A DNA stretch of 40,236 nucleotides from Calditrichota bacterium. GTDB lineage: Bacteria; Electryoneota; AABM5-125-24; Hatepunaeales; Hatepunaeaceae. A program made the position numbers and the translations under genes. Below, one piece after another: positions 15,170-34,969 of the stretch (its first letter is position 1; every line of letters starts with the position of its first letter). Below the pieces are notes generated by a model. It did no database searches, was not told the origin of the DNA, and saw only the letters and a program-made list of their open reading frames with translations. The stretch spans positions 1 to 40,236 of the forward strand of contig VGIO01000006.1 in NCBI GenBank assembly GCA_016867855.1, given 5' to 3'.

Positions 15170-16606
15170 ATGCAAAAAGCCATCATAATTTACATAGCAT
15201 TGCTCGCTCTTAGAACCATTGAACTCCAAGCACAAGTTATTGAAAAAATTTGGGAAAGGTTTTACAGAAGCGCTCCCGACTCTTCAACTATTGATGATTA
15301 CTGTCGTGGATTTGTCCCTTTGTCTGATGGGGGGTATTTAGTTTCAGCAGCATACCAGAATCGATATGGTTGGTATTCCTGGATTTTCCGAGCCGATTTT
15401 GATGGTGAGATAGTTTGGGAAGACCGCTATCCGCCGGAATCGCCTCGTAACCGGGGCTACTTACTTCGATATAATGAAGACGAATGTCTGCTGATGTCTT
15501 CCTGCTTGGTGGATGGCAGAACCCAGGCCCATCTTACCTGCATTTCAAACGAAGGAGATGTTCCTTGGGAAAGAACATATCCTTGCGAAGTAGGCGATGT
15601 GCCGCTTGGAGTATTAGTCTTGCAGGACGGAACCATTTTCCTTGAAACCTATCGAGCAAGCCGTGACTCGTCGGAACGATATGTTATAACTTTAATAGAC
15701 CAAAGCGGATTTGAGTTCGATTCGCGCGCTTATGGCCATTATTTCAGTCTTGGTGGTTGCCAAATTGAACCAGACCGCATTGTTCTGGCATCTACAGTGC
15801 AGGTGGATCGCTATCATAATGCGCCGGCGGTATTCGTAGTAAACTCGCATGGCGATTCGCTGGATTATCGAACCTTCCCGGCTCAATTATATCTGCATAA
15901 TTTCGGAGTCAGTCAATTATACGATGGCAATTTACTTATTTATGGTGTTTATGGAGAAATTCTTTATTCTTATTTTATTAAATTAAATCGAAACTGTCAA
16001 ATGATATGGTCAGCCTATTATGACAATGTGAGATATTCATATTTCAATGATTTAGCAAATTTATCCGATGATAGAATTGTATTTGCGGGTAATAATATTG
16101 GCTCGCGAGCATGGATTGGAGAGATAAATCCGTGGGGTGAATTCGCCTGCGACCAATCTGACTCCGGTTTAGGCTGGGGATATTTCTGTAAAATAAGAGT
16201 TATCGACGATGATAATGTTATTGTATCCGGCATAACCTTACCAAGACCGGATATGCATCAAGATGATTCTTATAACAGAAATATATGGGTAGCACGTTAC
16301 TCAATCCCGCGCTTATCAGTAAGAAATACAATACCGTATTTGACCGAAAATTATATCTTTCGACCATTTCCAAATCCATTTAATTCAAATATTTATATAC
16401 CTATTGAAATATTTTCGGATTGTAATCCGTCACTTCAAATCAGCGATGAGTCTGGCCGAAATATTCTTTTTTTACCGTCAGAGGTTCTACAAACTGGAAA
16501 ATATACATATTATTGGGAATTTTCAGAATTACCAAGCGGGGCTTATTTTTTTCATTATTTCAATGGTCGTTCTATAATCGCTTATAAAATACTAAAAACA
16601 AAATAA
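15170..16606 (+). CDS. Secreted protein with C-terminal T9SS sorting domain
   Basis: A 478-residue exported protein. A signal peptide (MQKAIIIYIALLALRTIELQAQ) precedes repeated blade-like segments such as LSDGGYLVSAAYQ, LVLQDGTIFLETYR, LYDGNLLIYGVYG and LSDDRIVFAGNN, which look like a beta-propeller. From about residue 400 the pattern FRPFPNPFNSNIYIPIEI ... LQISDESGRNI ... LPSGAYFFHYFN ... YKILKTK is a Por/T9SS type A sorting domain, removed or used as anchor during export across the outer membrane. The gene is AT-rich compared with the RND genes. It ends 12 bases before the next T9SS gene, which has AAAAGGATA ahead of its ATG, so both are probably co-transcribed. Function unknown. Confidence 0.8.
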   Translation: MQKAIIIYIALLALRTIELQAQVIEKIWERFYRSAPDSSTIDDYCRGFVPLSDGGYLVSAAYQNRYGWYSWIFRADFDGEIVWEDRYPPESPRNRGYLLRYNEDECLLMSSCLVDGRTQAHLTCISNEGDVPWERTYPCEVGDVPLGVLVLQDGTIFLETYRASRDSSERYVITLIDQSGFEFDSRAYGHYFSLGGCQIEPDRIVLASTVQVDRYHNAPAVFVVNSHGDSLDYRTFPAQLYLHNFGVSQLYDGNLLIYGVYGEILYSYFIKLNRNCQMIWSAYYDNVRYSYFNDLANLSDDRIVFAGNNIGSRAWIGEINPWGEFACDQSDSGLGWGYFCKIRVIDDDNVIVSGITLPRPDMHQDDSYNRNIWVARYSIPRLSVRNTIPYLTENYIFRPFPNPFNSNIYIPIEIFSDCNPSLQISDESGRNILFLPSEVLQTGKYTYYWEFSELPSGAYFFHYFNGRSIIAYKILKTK

Positions 16607-16618
16607 AAGGATACTTAA

Positions 16619-19600
16619 ATGAAAACAAGATTTGGAACTCAAAATGTTATTTTCGCAATCGCTGTGATTGCCCTAAATACCTCACAAGTTGATGCTTATA
16701 CACGTGATGAGGCATATAATTACTTGCGAAATTACATTTTAGGCTCTTCGGTTCAATACTTGGAGAGTTTCGGCTCACAAGCCATACTTTCACCGACAAC
16801 AACCGTCGTATGTATGGATGACACAATCTATGCTCCAAATTATTCAAGTTGGTTATTTTCTATCGACTTGAATTACTCGGCAGGTCTATCGCATCCGATA
16901 GACTTGTATTTCATTAATTCGAACGACTTAAATCAGTGGACTATTGAACCTGTCGTATGGCCGGTCATTAATATCGTTATGGATTTTATCCAATTAGATA
17001 TGCCACCAGGCGATTTAATCAACGCAGATACAAATTTAATGCGTATACCTTATGCTACCCCAGATCCGCATTTAAAAGCGTTAATAATATGCGGTTCTCA
17101 AGGCGGTCATGGAGTAGTCGATAATTTTAATATATATCTTTTAGACTATTACACATATAATAGCACTTGTAGATTCTATATTATGCTTAAGATGTTGGGC
17201 TTTGGAGATGTCCGAGTATGTATGGGAACAAATTATAATAATAATCTTCGGTTGCCAGATGTGCGAATACTTGTTCCGTATTCTTCACAACCTGGAGATT
17301 CTAGTTATTTTTGGATTGCGGATCATAATTTAGATTTAGATCCTGACAGCACCAATGATGTAACAAGTAACGCTACTCGTGCAGATATAAGGCAGGCTTA
17401 TGCAGACCTTGCGGCAGATATTGGACCTCTTGACCGAGTAGTTATTTACAGTGTTGGGCATAGTGATAACAGTGGAAATAATCTCCGATTGGTCACTTGG
17501 GATGGACATAATCCAGGTATTTCAACTGATACACTTTATTCCTGGTTGTTACCGCTTACGGGATGCGCTGAACTGTTTGTTATACTAGACCATTGTTGGG
17601 TTTCGCGGATGTTCACCGAGAAATTAGATGATTATTTTGAAAATTTCAGTCGTACACATATACTTGCCGCATGCAGACCTAGTCAGCAAACTTATGCTGA
17701 GGCTCAATTTACACATATATTGTATTCTATATTTACATATTACTTTACATCATATTTTATAGGCACTTATCCATATTTATTTGATATACATAATGGGCGG
17801 GCATACGGAACTAATGTCTGGGCTTATGGTAGTTCAATTGAATATACGATTTTTACCGGCAATCATTGTTTCCCTGATAGTTCCGGTGGAGCCTGTTATG
17901 ATAATTGGATCCAACCTGATAGAAATAATGATGGTGTCAAAAGTTTTCGCGAGGCCGTCGAATACACCTGGGCGAGGATGCCAGGAATAAGCGAATATAA
18001 CATAAATAAGCGTTTTCCGCGCGGCGCATTAGGCATACAAGAACCTCACTATATTTTTCAGCGTACTCTAGGAACATTCAATCCTGAATACGACAGTTCA
18101 GGCACTGTAACTTTCACCGGTCGAGGCGGCTATGTTAATTGGGCATCTGACGATGTAGATTGTAATTGGACATCGCTTAAAAAATATATCGTAACACATA
18201 CACTTAAATTCACCTCACTTCAAAACCCTCCTTCAACGACAATCGGAAATACAGGGGTCACGCCAGTAGAGTTCTTATTCTATCCAAATACGGGTATAAC
18301 ATTTGCTCGAACTGTCAATCCGATAGTCAATGCTGACTTTAAATCCTTCTATGGCGGCACGTGCGACAGGTGGCTAGGTGTTGCCATTAATAATGATACG
18401 CTTACACTCCAAAACAGCGAAATTGAAAATGCACTAACCGGTCTGGCTGTTTATAACCAAACTTCGAATAATGATGTTCTAATTAAGGATGTTGAAGTCA
18501 ATAACTGCGTTGTTGGCTTTGATTTCTGGAATAGCAATTCTGCTATAGTGATTGATAATTGTCAAATATATGAATGTTTATTTGGTGCAATATTTCAAAA
18601 TAGTATCACAGATATGGCTTCCTGTGATTTTATTACAAATTCCGACGCTGTATCAATTTTTGACAATAGCATTTTATTTTCTTACTATAGCGATATTATC
18701 CATAACGATTATGGAGTAGTCATAGATGGATTGGGTAATTTTGCCGATTTTTCTTCGCCAACGCTTTTAGAGATTACAAATAATCAATTTGTGTTAAATA
18801 ATTTTTATGGTGTTTATGTTTCGAGCAATGCTGCTGGTTCTTTTACTTTGCTTGGCAATCCCGGCTGGAACTGCTTTATCGATAATGGGGTAGGTGCGAT
18901 TTATAATGGTTTAGCAGGCACATTCATCGATGCAGAATATAACTATTGGGGCAGTGATCCGCCCGATCTGAACGAATTCCAGGGGCCAGGCGCGGTGGAC
19001 TATATTCCTTATTGGGACGGGGAAGAAGGTGTAATGCCTCCACGAACTAAAGATAACAGTGAGCATAACACCAATGAGTTCGAAGCCGAGATAGTGGCGA
19101 TTTTCAATCACTTTAAAAACGAGAATTTCGATACTATTCCTGGTCTATGCCGTGATTTTGTTCTACGGCACCCAAACAGCCCGAATGTATTAGCCGCTTT
19201 GAATCTCTGGATTAAAGCCTCGAGGCGTTTGGACCGTGTTGATGGTCTGACTGACGAATTGACTAATTTACTGCAGCGCCGGGAATTCGACCGTGCACCA
19301 GCCAGGCAGTGGCAGGATATTGTCCTTGCTAATTGCGAAATCTCCGCCGGCGATTATGTTCAGGCTCAGTGCCGCCTTGAAAGAAGACTGGACAATGATG
19401 TTGTTTCTGCGGCCGTGAGAATCAATACACTGATTACACTTGCCAATCTTAATCTATTTGGTTTGAACGATACTTTAGCGGCTTTTAACCTTTTTAGACG
19501 GATTATTAACGACTACCCGGACTCACGCTACGCAGACTTGGCTGAAGTAAGATTGAATACTCTTCGGCACTGGATTGATTCGCGTCCACCAATCAGACCT

Positions 19601-19888
19601 GATAATTCTGAAGTTAATTTACCAATGGAATATATTTTGCTGGAAGCCTATCCCAATCCTTTCAACAACCAAACAGTCATTCGTTTCCAGATACCGAAAG
19701 CCGGTGATATTTCGCTGGAATTGTTCGACCTAACCGGCCGCTTATCGCAGATAATATTCAGCGATAGAGTAGAGGCTGGTTCGCACCAAATAGTCTGGAA
19801 TTCAGAGAGTCTGCCGGACGGGCTATATCTTTGCCGTTTGGAAACTGAAAATGCGGTCAAAACGGTGAAGTTAGTCTTGATAAAATAA
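16619..19888 (+). CDS. Large secreted protein: putative clan CD (caspase/legumain-like) peptidase, beta-helix, helical repeats, T9SS sorting domain
   Basis: 1089 residues with a signal peptide ending near VDAYT. Residues ~150-360 show a caspase-fold pattern: the strand LKALIICGSQGG, RADIRQAYADLA, then the strand VVIYSVGHSD with candidate catalytic His281 and the strand LFVILDHCWVS with candidate Cys326, followed by THILAACRPSQQTYAE. This is the His...Cys order of C13/C14/C25 peptidases, although the usual His-Gly is His-Ser here. Residues ~520-800 resemble a right-handed parallel beta-helix ending in the typical NYWGS. A helical-repeat section (about 820-990, with FRRIINDYPDSRYADLAEVRL) follows. 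The end, from YPNPFNNQTVIRFQIP (about 1010) to GLYLCRL, is a T9SS sorting domain. Peptidase activity is an inference. Confidence 0.72.
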   Translation: MKTRFGTQNVIFAIAVIALNTSQVDAYTRDEAYNYLRNYILGSSVQYLESFGSQAILSPTTTVVCMDDTIYAPNYSSWLFSIDLNYSAGLSHPIDLYFINSNDLNQWTIEPVVWPVINIVMDFIQLDMPPGDLINADTNLMRIPYATPDPHLKALIICGSQGGHGVVDNFNIYLLDYYTYNSTCRFYIMLKMLGFGDVRVCMGTNYNNNLRLPDVRILVPYSSQPGDSSYFWIADHNLDLDPDSTNDVTSNATRADIRQAYADLAADIGPLDRVVIYSVGHSDNSGNNLRLVTWDGHNPGISTDTLYSWLLPLTGCAELFVILDHCWVSRMFTEKLDDYFENFSRTHILAACRPSQQTYAEAQFTHILYSIFTYYFTSYFIGTYPYLFDIHNGRAYGTNVWAYGSSIEYTIFTGNHCFPDSSGGACYDNWIQPDRNNDGVKSFREAVEYTWARMPGISEYNINKRFPRGALGIQEPHYIFQRTLGTFNPEYDSSGTVTFTGRGGYVNWASDDVDCNWTSLKKYIVTHTLKFTSLQNPPSTTIGNTGVTPVEFLFYPNTGITFARTVNPIVNADFKSFYGGTCDRWLGVAINNDTLTLQNSEIENALTGLAVYNQTSNNDVLIKDVEVNNCVVGFDFWNSNSAIVIDNCQIYECLFGAIFQNSITDMASCDFITNSDAVSIFDNSILFSYYSDIIHNDYGVVIDGLGNFADFSSPTLLEITNNQFVLNNFYGVYVSSNAAGSFTLLGNPGWNCFIDNGVGAIYNGLAGTFIDAEYNYWGSDPPDLNEFQGPGAVDYIPYWDGEEGVMPPRTKDNSEHNTNEFEAEIVAIFNHFKNENFDTIPGLCRDFVLRHPNSPNVLAALNLWIKASRRLDRVDGLTDELTNLLQRREFDRAPARQWQDIVLANCEISAGDYVQAQCRLERRLDNDVVSAAVRINTLITLANLNLFGLNDTLAAFNLFRRIINDYPDSRYADLAEVRLNTLRHWIDSRPPIRPDNSEVNLPMEYILLEAYPNPFNNQTVIRFQIPKAGDISLELFDLTGRLSQIIFSDRVEAGSHQIVWNSESLPDGLYLCRLETENAVKTVKLVLIK

Positions 19889-24411: not shown

Positions 24412-27090
24412 ATGCGACTAATGTCGAACCACTCCATCGCCGCGCTTGTTCGTTTGCGCGTTGTTTTGCTTTTTACATTAGCGGTATCATTTGTTGATTA
24501 TCGACCGGCTTTTGCCACCCTCCCCCCTGCTCCGCCATTCGACCGGACCTGGTCCGATACGACCGAACCTTTCCTGCCTTATTATCAACTTGACTTACAC
24601 CGGCAATTAACTCCCGGTCGTGACATCGGCAATTATATCTGGCAGTTTCAACTGACCTGCGATTTCCTCGATAGTATGCAGGAGCATAACCGGCAGGATG
24701 CCAATTTTGGCGGTCTGCACGAGGGCGAAGGTCCGCAACTTTGGGCAATTGTCGAGACCGACAACACACAGGAAGCCATCCGCGTCTGGTGCCTCTACGC
24801 TGCGGATTTCATGGACCTAAATCGATATCGCGAGAATATCGAGGCGGCTTGGACTTATTGCGATTCGTATCCGGCTTGGGCGGAGAGCGAGCCCGGCGAA
24901 ATGTATGGACTTCACAACGCCGGCTGGGGTTTGATGGCGGAAATGGCTTATCGTCGAGTATATGGCGGCAGCCGACGCGAATATGGTTTGAGATGCGCCC
25001 GGCATTTAGTTGAACACACGCCTGAGATTACGAATGAAATGCAGGATATTCTTATGCCATTAGTTGCCGGTTGGACAGCTGGAACCCTCTATAGATATAG
25101 TGAATTAGAGAATAACGAGTCTTTTCGACAAAACGCTTTAAGGATAGCCAACCAAGTTAAGAATTGGATTGATTTTCGCCCCGCTAGATTGAATAATAAT
25201 GAAATATGGGCGTTATGCGGCGGAACTGCGATGTGGGGAATATTAAATTCATTAGGCCGGGCTGATTCATCTGGGACAGGCGAATGGGCTATCGAACGAT
25301 TACAGCAGATGGATGTCTTTGCCGGACGCGGCAATTGGAATAACTCTTGGAACATCTGGTATGCCCACGCCTGGCACGATGCTTTTCGCTTGATTGGGGA
25401 TGACGACTACCGTATAAATGCCATCGCTATTGTTGACAGCCTGATGCGTCAGGACCGGGACCGTGACGGAGGTATCCCTGCTACCATCGGCGATGGCGAT
25501 AACCGCGATCAGGCCTGGGTATCGGCTTATACGGCTTGGATGGGGCTTTGGAACAATTTCGATGCGTTGCCGGAGGTCAATTTACGAATAGCGCGTTTAG
25601 CAGCGCCGAATATCAATCGTCCCTGGCCGGTCAACATGGATTTCAATTTTATCTTTGAATTACAGCAGCAGGGCGCCTTAATGAATGTGCAGGCGGAATT
25701 CGGGTTAAGTCGCGATTCAACGCATCGTATTGAAATAAACGGCTGGCGTCCTATCGGATATTTCTATTCATTAAGCCAAGACCTGCCGGTTGGAATACAC
25801 CAATTCTCGGCTTTCGTTAATCATCGAGATGAGTTTGACCGCAGCGACGACACGCTGTATTTTGCTCTCGAAATTTTACCGGTATGTCCTATCGTGATTA
25901 TGGCGCGAAATTATCGTGGGGAATATATCGGCTGCCGTTTAGCATTTTATAATACAGCCTTGCCTATAGACGAACCGCCGATAGTCCTTATTTCGACGCC
26001 CCAAGTCGAAGAATTACATTCCAATCTTATGGTCGGCGAATATCGAGTGTTAATAGAACCCGATTTTCCTTATGCTGATAGCGTCATCGCCGCCTATCGC
26101 ATTGAACGTAATTGGGAATATCGAATGGAATTGGTATTCGACCAGCCTCCCGTGCTGTTGGTTGACAATTCAGGCGACACTGCTTTAGCACGTTACTATA
26201 CAACTGCTTTGGAAGCGTTGGACTATCCTTATCATTTATGGAATACTGCCGAATCCGGCGTGCTTAGCCCGCAGATCGGATTGTTCAACACCGTTATATA
26301 CTATTCCGGCATCCGCAGCGACGGCGCCATTCTAAACAGCGACCAGGTCGAATTGAGCCGTTTCAACCGCGCCGGTAAAAATATCTTCATAACCGGGCAA
26401 AATATTTCCGATGAATTTGCCGATACACCATTTTTAAGCGATGTTCTTTACTGCCGACATCTTGCCGATAATGTGCGCCGCTCACAAGCCTTGGGCATAG
26501 CCGGCGACCCGATTTCCGATATGCACAACTACCTTCTCATCGGCAACCGCGGCGCTAACAACCAGACTTCCCCGGCTGGAATTACACCGGTTAACGGCGG
26601 AATTGCCGGTGTGATGTATCCCGACCGGCCGGATACTTTTGCTGGCGTGCGTTGGACACTTCCTGGCGGCGGCAAAGGCATATTCCTCGCTTTCGGCTTC
26701 GAGGGCATAAGCGGGCAGGGCGGCACAACACCCCGCGATACACTATTAGCCTCTATCTTTCGCTGGTTCGATGTCCCGCGCAGGGTCGGTGAATTCGAAC
26801 CTTATCCTCATCCTGTTTCTTATTATATAATAACAGCATTCCCCAATCCTTTCAACAATTACATTAATATAACTATTCCAACTTTAGGTTCGAACAAGAT
26901 AAACAATATCTCTATCATCGATCTGCAAGGCCGCCTGGTGCGGGATTTGGAATTCGATAAATTCGGTCGGATAGTCTGGGACGGGCGTAACTGGCAGGAT
27001 AAAACGGTCGGATCAGGTAGTTATTTCATTATTTTAGCGGATCCAAATAATAACAGAGTTCAAAATAAGCGAATTGTGCATATTAGATAA
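24412..27090 (+). CDS. Secreted protein with helical-toroid-like domain and T9SS sorting domain
   Basis: 892 residues; an ATG at 24421 is an alternative start. A signal peptide (VRLRVVLLFTLAVSFVDYRPAFA) is followed by about 350 residues of repeated helical pairs rich in Trp, Tyr and Gly: IEAAWTYCDSYP, LHNAGWGLMAEMAYRRVYGG, LMPLVAGWTAGTLYRY, IWYAHAWHDAFRLIGDDDYR, DRDRDGGIPATIGDGDN. This resembles an alpha/alpha toroid of the six-hairpin glycosidase type, but no catalytic acid pair can be assigned. A beta-rich middle is followed near residues 590-780 by an alpha/beta section (VLLVDNSGD, VIYYSGIRSDG, IFITGQNISDEF) like a ThuA/GATase-type fold. The C-terminus, from FPNPFNNYINITIP (about 810), is a T9SS sorting domain. 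Probably a cell-surface or secreted enzyme; substrate unknown. Confidence 0.75.
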   Translation: MRLMSNHSIAALVRLRVVLLFTLAVSFVDYRPAFATLPPAPPFDRTWSDTTEPFLPYYQLDLHRQLTPGRDIGNYIWQFQLTCDFLDSMQEHNRQDANFGGLHEGEGPQLWAIVETDNTQEAIRVWCLYAADFMDLNRYRENIEAAWTYCDSYPAWAESEPGEMYGLHNAGWGLMAEMAYRRVYGGSRREYGLRCARHLVEHTPEITNEMQDILMPLVAGWTAGTLYRYSELENNESFRQNALRIANQVKNWIDFRPARLNNNEIWALCGGTAMWGILNSLGRADSSGTGEWAIERLQQMDVFAGRGNWNNSWNIWYAHAWHDAFRLIGDDDYRINAIAIVDSLMRQDRDRDGGIPATIGDGDNRDQAWVSAYTAWMGLWNNFDALPEVNLRIARLAAPNINRPWPVNMDFNFIFELQQQGALMNVQAEFGLSRDSTHRIEINGWRPIGYFYSLSQDLPVGIHQFSAFVNHRDEFDRSDDTLYFALEILPVCPIVIMARNYRGEYIGCRLAFYNTALPIDEPPIVLISTPQVEELHSNLMVGEYRVLIEPDFPYADSVIAAYRIERNWEYRMELVFDQPPVLLVDNSGDTALARYYTTALEALDYPYHLWNTAESGVLSPQIGLFNTVIYYSGIRSDGAILNSDQVELSRFNRAGKNIFITGQNISDEFADTPFLSDVLYCRHLADNVRRSQALGIAGDPISDMHNYLLIGNRGANNQTSPAGITPVNGGIAGVMYPDRPDTFAGVRWTLPGGGKGIFLAFGFEGISGQGGTTPRDTLLASIFRWFDVPRRVGEFEPYPHPVSYYIITAFPNPFNNYINITIPTLGSNKINNISIIDLQGRLVRDLEFDKFGRIVWDGRNWQDKTVGSGSYFIILADPNNNRVQNKRIVHIR

Positions 27091-32244: not shown

Positions 32245-33753
32245 TTATCTATCTTGTCCACCGCGCTCAATTTTCTCCCTAAAATCATCAAACTTATCCT
32301 TGCCGGCGGCAAATAAAAGCAGCATTGGACATTTTTCGCGCGCCAATTTTATCATATCATCAGCGATATTTCGAATATCCCATTGTGCATCGGCATCCTG
32401 CCGTAGCCGTGAAAAATGAGTCAATTCGCGAGCGTTGAGTTGCAAAAGGACTCGCCGCCGGTGGGCGTTGGTCAAAACATATTGCGCCGCCGGTCTGTTT
32501 TCAGTCGGCAAATTCTTCAGTAGGATGTTATAAAATTCTTGTGATTTATTAGTATAACTTATGAAATGGCTTTTCAAACTAACGGCTTCGATTGACGGCG
32601 GTATAGTTATACTTAATTCGGGTAGATAATCCTGTTTGATGATAGTTGCGATGCGATGTCGTTTTAGTTGTGCGAAGGCTGAAGCGCTCAATTCGACCTC
32701 AAAGAGAAAGACACCTAACTCCATTTCTCTCAAAAGCGGCGAATGAGCATCCAGATAACCGTGGGCGCGCCATAACAAGGTTTGGCGCTTCGCTTCGGAA
32801 AGCGAAGCCACATAGTTTTTCGCATCTTGGAAAGAAGATTTACCGGCGGCGAACAACATCGCAGCCAGGGCTGTCTGTTCGGCTTCAACTGGAAAAGCCA
32901 GCAGTTTGACCGAGCGAATGGAATCAGACTTAGAACTAACGCCGACTTTTTCAGCCGATGCTCCCAGCGCCTGATAGGAAGTATTAATTTTTAGGTTTGG
33001 TTCAGTATGTCGAATGAGAGATGGCGTTGCGCGGCGCAGAATTGTGAGCATTTGCGCGCTCATCTCACGCGCTTCTTTAAGCCTTGAAGTCGCCGATTGC
33101 CGGATAATATGCTCCGCGGTGCGGGCGTTCATAGTTACGCCGACCTGTCCGCGACAGGACAACGGCAGGACATAACGGCTGTCTTCCCGCGCTATCCCGC
33201 TGCGCGCTCTTTCCGGCAGAGAACTATAATATTCATCTAACTTGGTGGACAGCTGCCGGTAGCCGTCGAATAATTCACGGCATAAATTGTGATACTCGGC
33301 TGTATATTTAGAATTTTTAATCTCTTCCGGCGTTATATAATCGCCGCTCTGCGAAATATAGCGCTGGGAAGACTCAGTGTAGGATGCTAGTCGATGCCCT
33401 TCGAGTTCTTCTATAACTAATCTTGAAATATCGGATACATCCAGGTTGAAAACGGCGTGTTCGGCTACTGAAGCGTGTCCGAAGCCGAATACGATGCGCT
33501 CGTTAGACTCCCGCGCGCGGTTGACCGAATCGCGGGCGTCGCATCGCAATTCGTGAACACTCTTTGGGCTGCGGCTAATACGGGCATACGCTGCTGAAAT
33601 AGTCTCCGGCGTCAAAGGCTCGTTCCGCAAACGCTCTAATAATTCCTCCAGCCGGGCTGAAGCCATATCGCCAAAGCGATACTCTTCGACGACCGCATTG
33701 ACCAATTCGATGGTATCGCTGTCGATGTTGAAACCGGCTAATCTTATATGCAA
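32245..33753 (-). CDS. Double-domain ThyX-like (FAD-dependent thymidylate synthase family) protein
   Basis: 502 residues, roughly twice a classical ThyX. The first half has GHASVAEHAVFNLDVSDISR and LEGHRLASYTESSQRYIS (about 117-134): the S-x3-S-x-R-Y side of the ThyX motif with Gly-His-Arg119-121 in place of Arg-His-Arg. The second half has LKRHRIATIIKQDY with intact Arg365-His-Arg367 and later NARELTHFSRLRQDADAQWDIR, the conserved dUMP/FAD-site region, but lacks the Ser/Arg-Tyr part. The two halves thus look complementary. Methylation of dUMP with methylene-tetrahydrofolate is the family reaction, but whether this fused form makes dTMP is not established by sequence. It leads the seven-gene - strand cluster, ending 25 bases before tatT. 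Confidence 0.82.
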   Translation of the reverse strand: MHIRLAGFNIDSDTIELVNAVVEEYRFGDMASARLEELLERLRNEPLTPETISAAYARISRSPKSVHELRCDARDSVNRARESNERIVFGFGHASVAEHAVFNLDVSDISRLVIEELEGHRLASYTESSQRYISQSGDYITPEEIKNSKYTAEYHNLCRELFDGYRQLSTKLDEYYSSLPERARSGIAREDSRYVLPLSCRGQVGVTMNARTAEHIIRQSATSRLKEAREMSAQMLTILRRATPSLIRHTEPNLKINTSYQALGASAEKVGVSSKSDSIRSVKLLAFPVEAEQTALAAMLFAAGKSSFQDAKNYVASLSEAKRQTLLWRAHGYLDAHSPLLREMELGVFLFEVELSASAFAQLKRHRIATIIKQDYLPELSITIPPSIEAVSLKSHFISYTNKSQEFYNILLKNLPTENRPAAQYVLTNAHRRRVLLQLNARELTHFSRLRQDADAQWDIRNIADDMIKLAREKCPMLLLFAAGKDKFDDFREKIERGGQDR

Positions 33754-33874: not shown

Positions 33875-34969
33875 ATGATTAACAGATATAAAATAACAGC
33901 GCTTCTTATTAGCGGCGCTTTAAGCCTCGCCGGCTGTCTGGAGCATAACTACGATTTCAAAGTTCATCCCAACGGCGCTATCGATTGTCATATTTTCATC
34001 CGCGGCGATTTAGTCGATATGGATGATGGGATGGATATCTTTCCCGACACATCTGTCTGGCAGGTTTCGCGCCGCATCGAAGAAGGCGAAAAAGAAACCG
34101 TGCATATTATAGAAGCCAATGCGCAATTGGATAATCCTCTCGATTTGTCTTCCTTATTCAACTGGTCTAAGGAACCTGCCGACTCGCTTCATCTTCGTCG
34201 CGCCTTCGATTTAAAAGTGGAAAAGAACATTCTCTTCAGTCGCTGGCGGTTCTCCGGACTCTTTATTTCCCGCAGTTATAATCGCAAATACGGCGATATT
34301 TGGGATTATGTGCCAGCCGAATGCCGGGTTTTGGAAGATGAAGCACAATTAAATCAGATGTCCTCAAGCGATGTTGACCTGTTGGAAAAGAAGTTTGCGC
34401 TTGGCGTGATACAGTGGAATCGCGCTCGGTTTGAGTGCGTCTTTGAGCGTATTTGGATGAATGCCCGTCGAAGCGACAGTTCTTTAGCCGACACATCCAG
34501 TATAGAATATAACATCGCCCGCAGCGGCTGGTTTGACGACCTGCATCGCTATCTCAACCTGTTGGATGTGCCGAAGCCGGAAGTGGTCAATCTCGATTGG
34601 TGGGTTGACCTGCGGCCACAGTTTCTCGGACGGTTCGCTGATTTTCTTCCGATGGAGAAAATCGACCTCATCGCCGATATCGCCGACGCCGTCGAACGGG
34701 AGTATCTCATCACCCGCGATATGCGCGATGACATTTATCGGGTGCGCGTTTCCCTACCCGGTTGGACGCTAAAAACCGACGGTCAAAAAGACAGCGGCGA
34801 CTGTATCTGGGAATTCACCGGCGAATACCTGCATAACGAGGATGGTGTGATTAACGCCGAATCGATTCAATTCGATTTTATCAATATGACCGGCATTATC
34901 CTCATCATAGCCATAGGTCTTAGTTTAATATATTTCTATCGAAAATCCCGCAAGACGGCTGCAAATTGA
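33875..34969 (+). CDS. Lipoprotein with C-terminal membrane helix, unknown function
   Basis: A 364-residue protein. Signal sequence KITALLISGALSLAGC contains a clear lipobox at Cys21. The following VHPNGAIDCHIFIRGD is a short beta-hairpin with a pattern seen in LppM-like (DUF3153-type) envelope lipoproteins, a weak similarity. A long soluble region with many Trp and Arg residues follows, then a C-terminal helix GIILIIAIGLSLIYFY and the basic tail RKSRKTAAN, giving the protein two membrane anchors. No catalytic motif was recognised. No Shine-Dalgarno sequence is visible before the ATG. Its stop overlaps the TTG start of the phosphatase gene (TTGA). Confidence 0.7.
   Translation: MINRYKITALLISGALSLAGCLEHNYDFKVHPNGAIDCHIFIRGDLVDMDDGMDIFPDTSVWQVSRRIEEGEKETVHIIEANAQLDNPLDLSSLFNWSKEPADSLHLRRAFDLKVEKNILFSRWRFSGLFISRSYNRKYGDIWDYVPAECRVLEDEAQLNQMSSSDVDLLEKKFALGVIQWNRARFECVFERIWMNARRSDSSLADTSSIEYNIARSGWFDDLHRYLNLLDVPKPEVVNLDWWVDLRPQFLGRFADFLPMEKIDLIADIADAVEREYLITRDMRDDIYRVRVSLPGWTLKTDGQKDSGDCIWEFTGEYLHNEDGVINAESIQFDFINMTGIILIIAIGLSLIYFYRKSRKTAAN

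Follow-up and report, generated by a model that had tools for sequence, protein, structure and literature searches.

A legumain-related clan CD protein with an altered active site, a beta-helix and a type IX sorting domain in Electryoneota

The window, by which we mean the whole stretch of 40,236 nucleotides analysed, carries on its forward strand a gene for a multidomain protein of 1089 amino acids, preceded by a shorter open reading frame (ORF) with a tail of the type IX secretion system (T9SS). The features to which the text refers are as follows:

15170..16606, + strand: upstream ORF, 478 aa, with a T9SS-type tail just below both curated cut-offs (Pfam, NCBIfam)
16619..19888, + strand: whole gene, 1089 aa, ATG start, with a full-length relative at 37% identity
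16619..16696, + strand: signal-peptide-like N-terminus, residues 1-26, as judged by eye
16697..17059, + strand: N-terminal domain, residues 27-147, common to T9SS C13 relatives
17060..17773, + strand: clan CD (C13-like) catalytic core, residues 148-385, from profile, profile-profile and model matches
17333..17359, + strand: D-x-D-x-D-x3-D loop, residues 239-247 (Asp239/241/243/247), of calcium type and putatively metal binding
17459..17461, + strand: His281 (codon cat), the catalytic His position by alignment
17462..17464, + strand: Ser282 (codon agt), replacing the Gly of the other 22 of 23 sequences
17594..17596, + strand: Cys326 (codon tgt), the catalytic Cys position by alignment
17918..17953, + strand: EF-hand-like loop, residues 434-445 (Asp434, Asn436, Asp438, Gly439, Glu445), putatively calcium binding
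18377..18835, + strand: right-handed beta-helix, residues 587-739 (Pfam PF13229)
19061..19588, + strand: helical/TPR-like section, about residues 815-990, with approximate boundaries (sub-threshold YfiO/TPR)
19649..19876, + strand: T9SS type A sorting domain, residues 1011-1086 (Pfam, NCBIfam)

The same domain order is found in a sister protein of 1138 aa (L014:6085-9501, contig JAVCDD010000036.1) from Ca. Hatepunaea meridiana (Candidatus Electryoneota in NCBI), and the 37% identity between the two extends over their full length. The beta-helix scores 35.3 bits against PF13229 (cut-off 25.9) and is followed by the motif NYWGS at residues 775-779; sub-threshold YfiO/TPR matches of Pfam and NCBIfam lie at about residues 946-984 of the helical section; and the tail exceeds both cut-offs, with 36.6 bits for PF18962 (cut-off 27) and 41.8 bits for TIGR04183 (cut-off 23). 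An earlier sequence-only reading of this DNA had proposed a beta-helix, a terminal NYWGS, a helical section and a T9SS tail in that order, and Pfam, NCBIfam and the sequence bear it out. Upstream of the beta-helix, no convincing Pfam or NCBIfam family was found in the 1089-aa protein. Two elements go beyond that reading, namely the conserved N-terminal domain (residues 27-147), which is possibly a pro-domain, and the two Asp-rich loops of calcium type.

The upstream ORF ends 12 bp before the gene and is a possible operon partner. It is the only neighbor to recur in Hatepunaea, with 31% identity over 159 residues, much of which is the tail, and the link is weak because ORFs with T9SS tails are common in this genome. 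The genes nearby are unremarkable and comprise an oxoacid:ferredoxin oxidoreductase cluster, two RND permeases, leucyl-tRNA synthetase, glutamine synthetase and a TRAP transporter. Elsewhere in the window lie (i) a gene (24412-27090, + strand) whose 892-aa product matches no family apart from its T9SS sorting tail; (ii) an ORF of 502 aa (32248-33753, - strand) that Thy1 (ThyX) matches twice at separate places, which points to a possible duplicated flavin-dependent thymidylate synthase; and (iii) an ORF of 364 aa (33875-34969, + strand) that is Pfam-negative at E 0.001.

Export by the T9SS, as proposed earlier, is upheld both by the tail, which is the C-terminal sorting domain of T9SS type A cargo (PF18962, TIGR04183), and by the presence of the T9SS machinery in this genome, where SprA is over its cut-off with 660 bits (819 with its neighbor). 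PorU-type matches occur in all 39 genomes of the phylum, 37 of them over the cut-off, and PorU of this genome is found as two pieces on two contigs (363.8 and 224.3 bits, each below the cut-off). Within its genome, which comprises 294 contigs and is 94% complete, the 1089-aa protein matches 143 further places at E<=0.001, in every case from residue 960 on; with 144 matching places, nearly all through the T9SS tail, the set of T9SS cargo appears to be very large. Leaving the sister aside, 14 Electryoneota proteins are related at the level of the domain, and a full-length scan covered 10 of these: Por_Secre_tail was matched by all 10 at E<=0.001, in eight over the curated cut-off, and the beta-helix by none. 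Two T9SS C13 genes stand in tandem in each of two further genomes, G024 and G021 (L060, L063).

The alpha/beta domain upstream of the beta-helix belongs to clan CD (caspase-haemoglobinase), and its nearest kin are T9SS-exported proteins of family C13 (legumain type), not the gingipains (C25). The Pfam models for C13, C14, C25 and C11 matched neither the 1089-aa protein nor its sister, and a phmmer search of the PDB with the 1089-aa protein alone returned no solved structure. The relationship emerges from profiles. A profile of 19 relatives (A7), built without either member of the pair, found the 1089-aa protein as its sole match in its own genome (E 2.6e-12), and in the Hatepunaea genome (G006) it found the sister, a second protein (L059) and one weak further place. 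Thus, of the check by family models suggested in the sequence-only reading, the direct match to C13, C14, C25 or C11 failed and the assignment to clan CD through the relatives succeeded. A profile of the pair (A3), compared with one of 13 Electryoneota C13 proteins (A4, families f6 and f7), gave a probability of 98.2% and E 4.6e-14 over an alignment that stops at the His strand. Against solved structures, a 16-sequence profile (A5) matched metacaspase 4 best (E 4.5e-11), and also a plant asparaginyl ligase (3.6e-10), human legumain and GPI transamidase (7w72_K, E 3.9e-6), while the pair alone matched a yeast metacaspase (E 0.0012) in an alignment that pairs His with His and Cys with Cys. PF01650 (C13) was matched at E<=0.01 by all 19 members of A7, and its gathering score was reached by neither the 1089-aa protein nor the sister; the Pfam C13 cut-off was exceeded in 10 of the 39 phylum genomes, in many cases by the same proteins that a second profile of the pair (A2) matched, and by no protein of the genome studied here. 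The catalytic domain thus adjoins C13 but misses its cut-off, and we stop short of assigning it to C13 itself.

Structure prediction is in agreement with the profiles. A model of 453 residues had a mean pLDDT of 37, too poor to be used alone, and even so its best Foldseek rows were legumains. In a model of the 238-residue core, which is of low confidence (mean pLDDT 56, pTM 0.65), strands and helices follow in caspase order, with a predicted alternating alpha/beta sheet in which strand 126-132 precedes His281 and strand 171-177 precedes Cys326 (model numbering); the caspase-like sheet on which the earlier proposal depended is accordingly present in the model at that confidence. The best 18 Foldseek rows for the core were legumains and peptide asparaginyl ligases (top E 1.2e-3, probability 1.00; none at E<=0.001), and VIA-align gave Z 10.8-12.6 over 139-185 residues, at an rmsd of 2.9-4.5, to metacaspases, legumains, GPI8 and MALT1, where Z differences below 1 are ties. 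The 50 structural matches listed by VIA-align include no C25 chain, which is no proof against a C25 fold, and these matches do not decide between C25 and C13/C14. In place of the gingipains suggested earlier, C13/legumain is the nearest family; membership of C25 was rejected on the grounds that no C25 family appears among the Pfam and NCBIfam matches outside the sorting tail, and legumain and metacaspase fit by profile and fold. That the domain is not of clan CD at all, and that His and Cys correspond by chance, is barely credible: the lack of a direct family match would allow it, but the A7, A3-A4 and A5 profiles, Foldseek, VIA-align and the conservation of both residues in 23 of 23 sequences oppose it.

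Residue counts were taken from 23 aligned sequences, including two (L081 and L087) that are absent from A7 (19 rows) and from the tree (21 rows); eight of 22 ORFs (L071 to L078), which encode other caspase-like proteins or ones further removed, were excluded from the alignments, and further weak matches (e.g., L030, L048 to L052 and L058) lie outside them. Among the excluded ORFs, L072 and L073, of genomes G001 and G016, have the caspase-like domain at the C-terminus of long proteins, the one in G016 lying behind what by eye are WD40-type repeats. His281 and Cys326, 45 residues apart, are invariant (23/23) and form a conserved His-Cys dyad; their positions and clan CD order, called correctly in the sequence-only reading, are confirmed by the ORF, the A7 profile and the alignment, and neither this survey of homologues nor the predicted fold gave a result against them. 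His is followed by Gly in 22 of the 23 sequences and by Ser only in the 1089-aa protein; Gly is usual at this place in clan CD and no universal requirement (for clan CD motifs, see PMC12445089). The sister reads Gly-His-Gly in place of Gly-His-Ser and keeps Leu-Asp-His-Cys, and so His-Ser is a peculiarity of a single protein and does not define a new type of surface protease, one of the two options of the sequence-only reading; the other, a catalytically altered relative, suits the evidence better. Both members of the pair lack the C-x-S-G motif that the 21 other rows have. An Arg at the S1-pocket position, defined by HMMER alignment with the Arg of plant legumain-type proteins, is present in 20 of 23 and missing from the 1089-aa protein, the sister and L059; the position two before Cys is Asp in these same three, Ser in L086 and Glu elsewhere. 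The S1 residues of legumain are Arg44, His45, Ser216 and Asp231, according to PMC4357240. With no counterpart of the legumain Arg and with Asp for Glu two before Cys, a preference for Asn at P1 is not expected.

In the two Asp-rich loops, Asp239, 241, 243 and 247 are shared by 23 of 23 sequences, and Asn436 and Glu445 by all 22 rows that extend that far, L086 being cut short and without the EF-like loop. Both loops (239-247 and 434-445) resemble calcium loops and may bind the metal; calcium is an activator of metacaspases and of RgpB, as stated in PMC4357240.

Close relatives are few, and the sister is the sole full-length one known. With residues 27-527 as query, 2 of 99 genomes matched, the genome itself and one of the same family; a scan of genome contigs found no relative with the 1089-aa protein alone and only the Hatepunaea contig with the pair profile, and none was found in viral contigs. 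The A2 profile reached L059 at E 2.1e-10 and, more weakly, proteins of other families inside and outside the phylum; at E<=1 it matched 15 of 99 genomes, and the A3 profile matched 11 of 386 genomes at E<=1e-4. The 21-row tree unites the pair in a single clade (100/100) and separates it from all other rows by 4.3 changes per column, a branch so long that the exact place of the pair is uncertain. Within the pair, identity is 42.7% in the core, 41.3% in the N-terminal domain, 35.1% in the beta-helix, 30.6% in the helical section and 33.0% in the tail; for residues 246-340, around His and Cys, it is 36.2%, below that of the whole core.

These figures bear on whether the enzyme is weakened or dead, its fold retained as a binding or scaffold domain before the beta-helix and His-Ser a sign of relaxed selection along its lineage. 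We consider this, the main competing reading, somewhat unlikely. The serine that replaces glycine next to the catalytic His of the 1089-aa protein alone, the loss of C-x-S-G and of the S1 arginine in both members of the pair, and the branch of 4.3 changes per column all argue for it, but His and Cys are retained in both proteins at 37% overall identity, and a serine can supply a backbone amide too. Moreover, identity in the core is not below that of the other domains, which speaks against free decay without being proof of activity.

We favor, at a probability of roughly 0.6, a surface cysteine endopeptidase related to legumain, with a presumed change of P1 specificity and presumed calcium loops. 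Such a protein would be exported in two steps, through Sec and next through the type IX system, its C-terminal sorting domain being removed and the protein anchored at the cell surface or released. His281 would activate Cys326 to attack the substrate, and the backbone amides of residue 282 and of Cys326 would stabilize the intermediate. Outside the cell, the two Asp-rich loops would probably bind calcium, which would stabilize the enzyme or switch it on, while the beta-helix and the helical section would probably hold a surface glycan or a partner protein. A transpeptidase or ligase, like GPI8 or PorU, that joins surface proteins to a carrier is very unlikely in place of a hydrolase: GPI transamidase chains rank high in the structural comparison (8imy_K, Z 12.4; 8imx_K, Z 12.1) and are matched by the profile named above (7w72_K), and the Asp two before Cys together with a Met-Phe a few residues after it presumably recall GPI8, but C13 and C14 peptidases match equally, the Z differences under 1 being ties, and PorU is a separate gene. 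Returning to the endopeptidase, its boldest extension would be a small subfamily, within Electryoneota, of legumain-derived enzymes that the T9SS exports and that work without the S1 arginine and the Cys-x-Ser-Gly loop, with an oxyanion hole built here with Ser, switched by calcium outside the cell, aimed by the beta-helix and possibly acting as surface transpeptidases; we regard it as quite unlikely.

To conclude, His-Ser, the lost S1 Arg, the lost C-x-S-G and the fusion to a beta-helix are real but modest differences, drawn from two proteins only. In the literature searched we found no description of legumain-type (C13) peptidases as T9SS cargo, and a term search of the accessible part of the Electryoneota paper (PMC10439189) gave no mention of peptidase, protease, secretion or T9SS. 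Among known systems, the T9SS C13 proteins (PF01650) of Electryoneota and other phyla share with the 1089-aa protein the N-terminal domain, the D-x-D-x-D-x3-D loop, His and Cys, the EF-like loop and the T9SS tail; they differ in having His-Gly, C-x-S-G, mostly the S1 Arg, a Pfam C13 match and no beta-helix, at 20-23% domain identity. The Hatepunaea sister agrees in domain order and in the absence of both the S1 Arg and C-x-S-G, but has His-Gly and is without an 11-residue insert before the first core helix. Gingipains and PorU (C25) have clan CD and T9SS export in common with the 1089-aa protein, whose sequence matches theirs nowhere outside the sorting tail. Legumain, or asparaginyl endopeptidase (C13), has the same fold and His-Cys order, whereas the 1089-aa protein has no Arg44 counterpart, no Gly after His and is exported to a bacterial surface. 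The relatives, drawn from several bacterial families, offer natural variants of the S1 pocket and the oxyanion hole for comparison with legumain, GPI8 and the peptide ligases.
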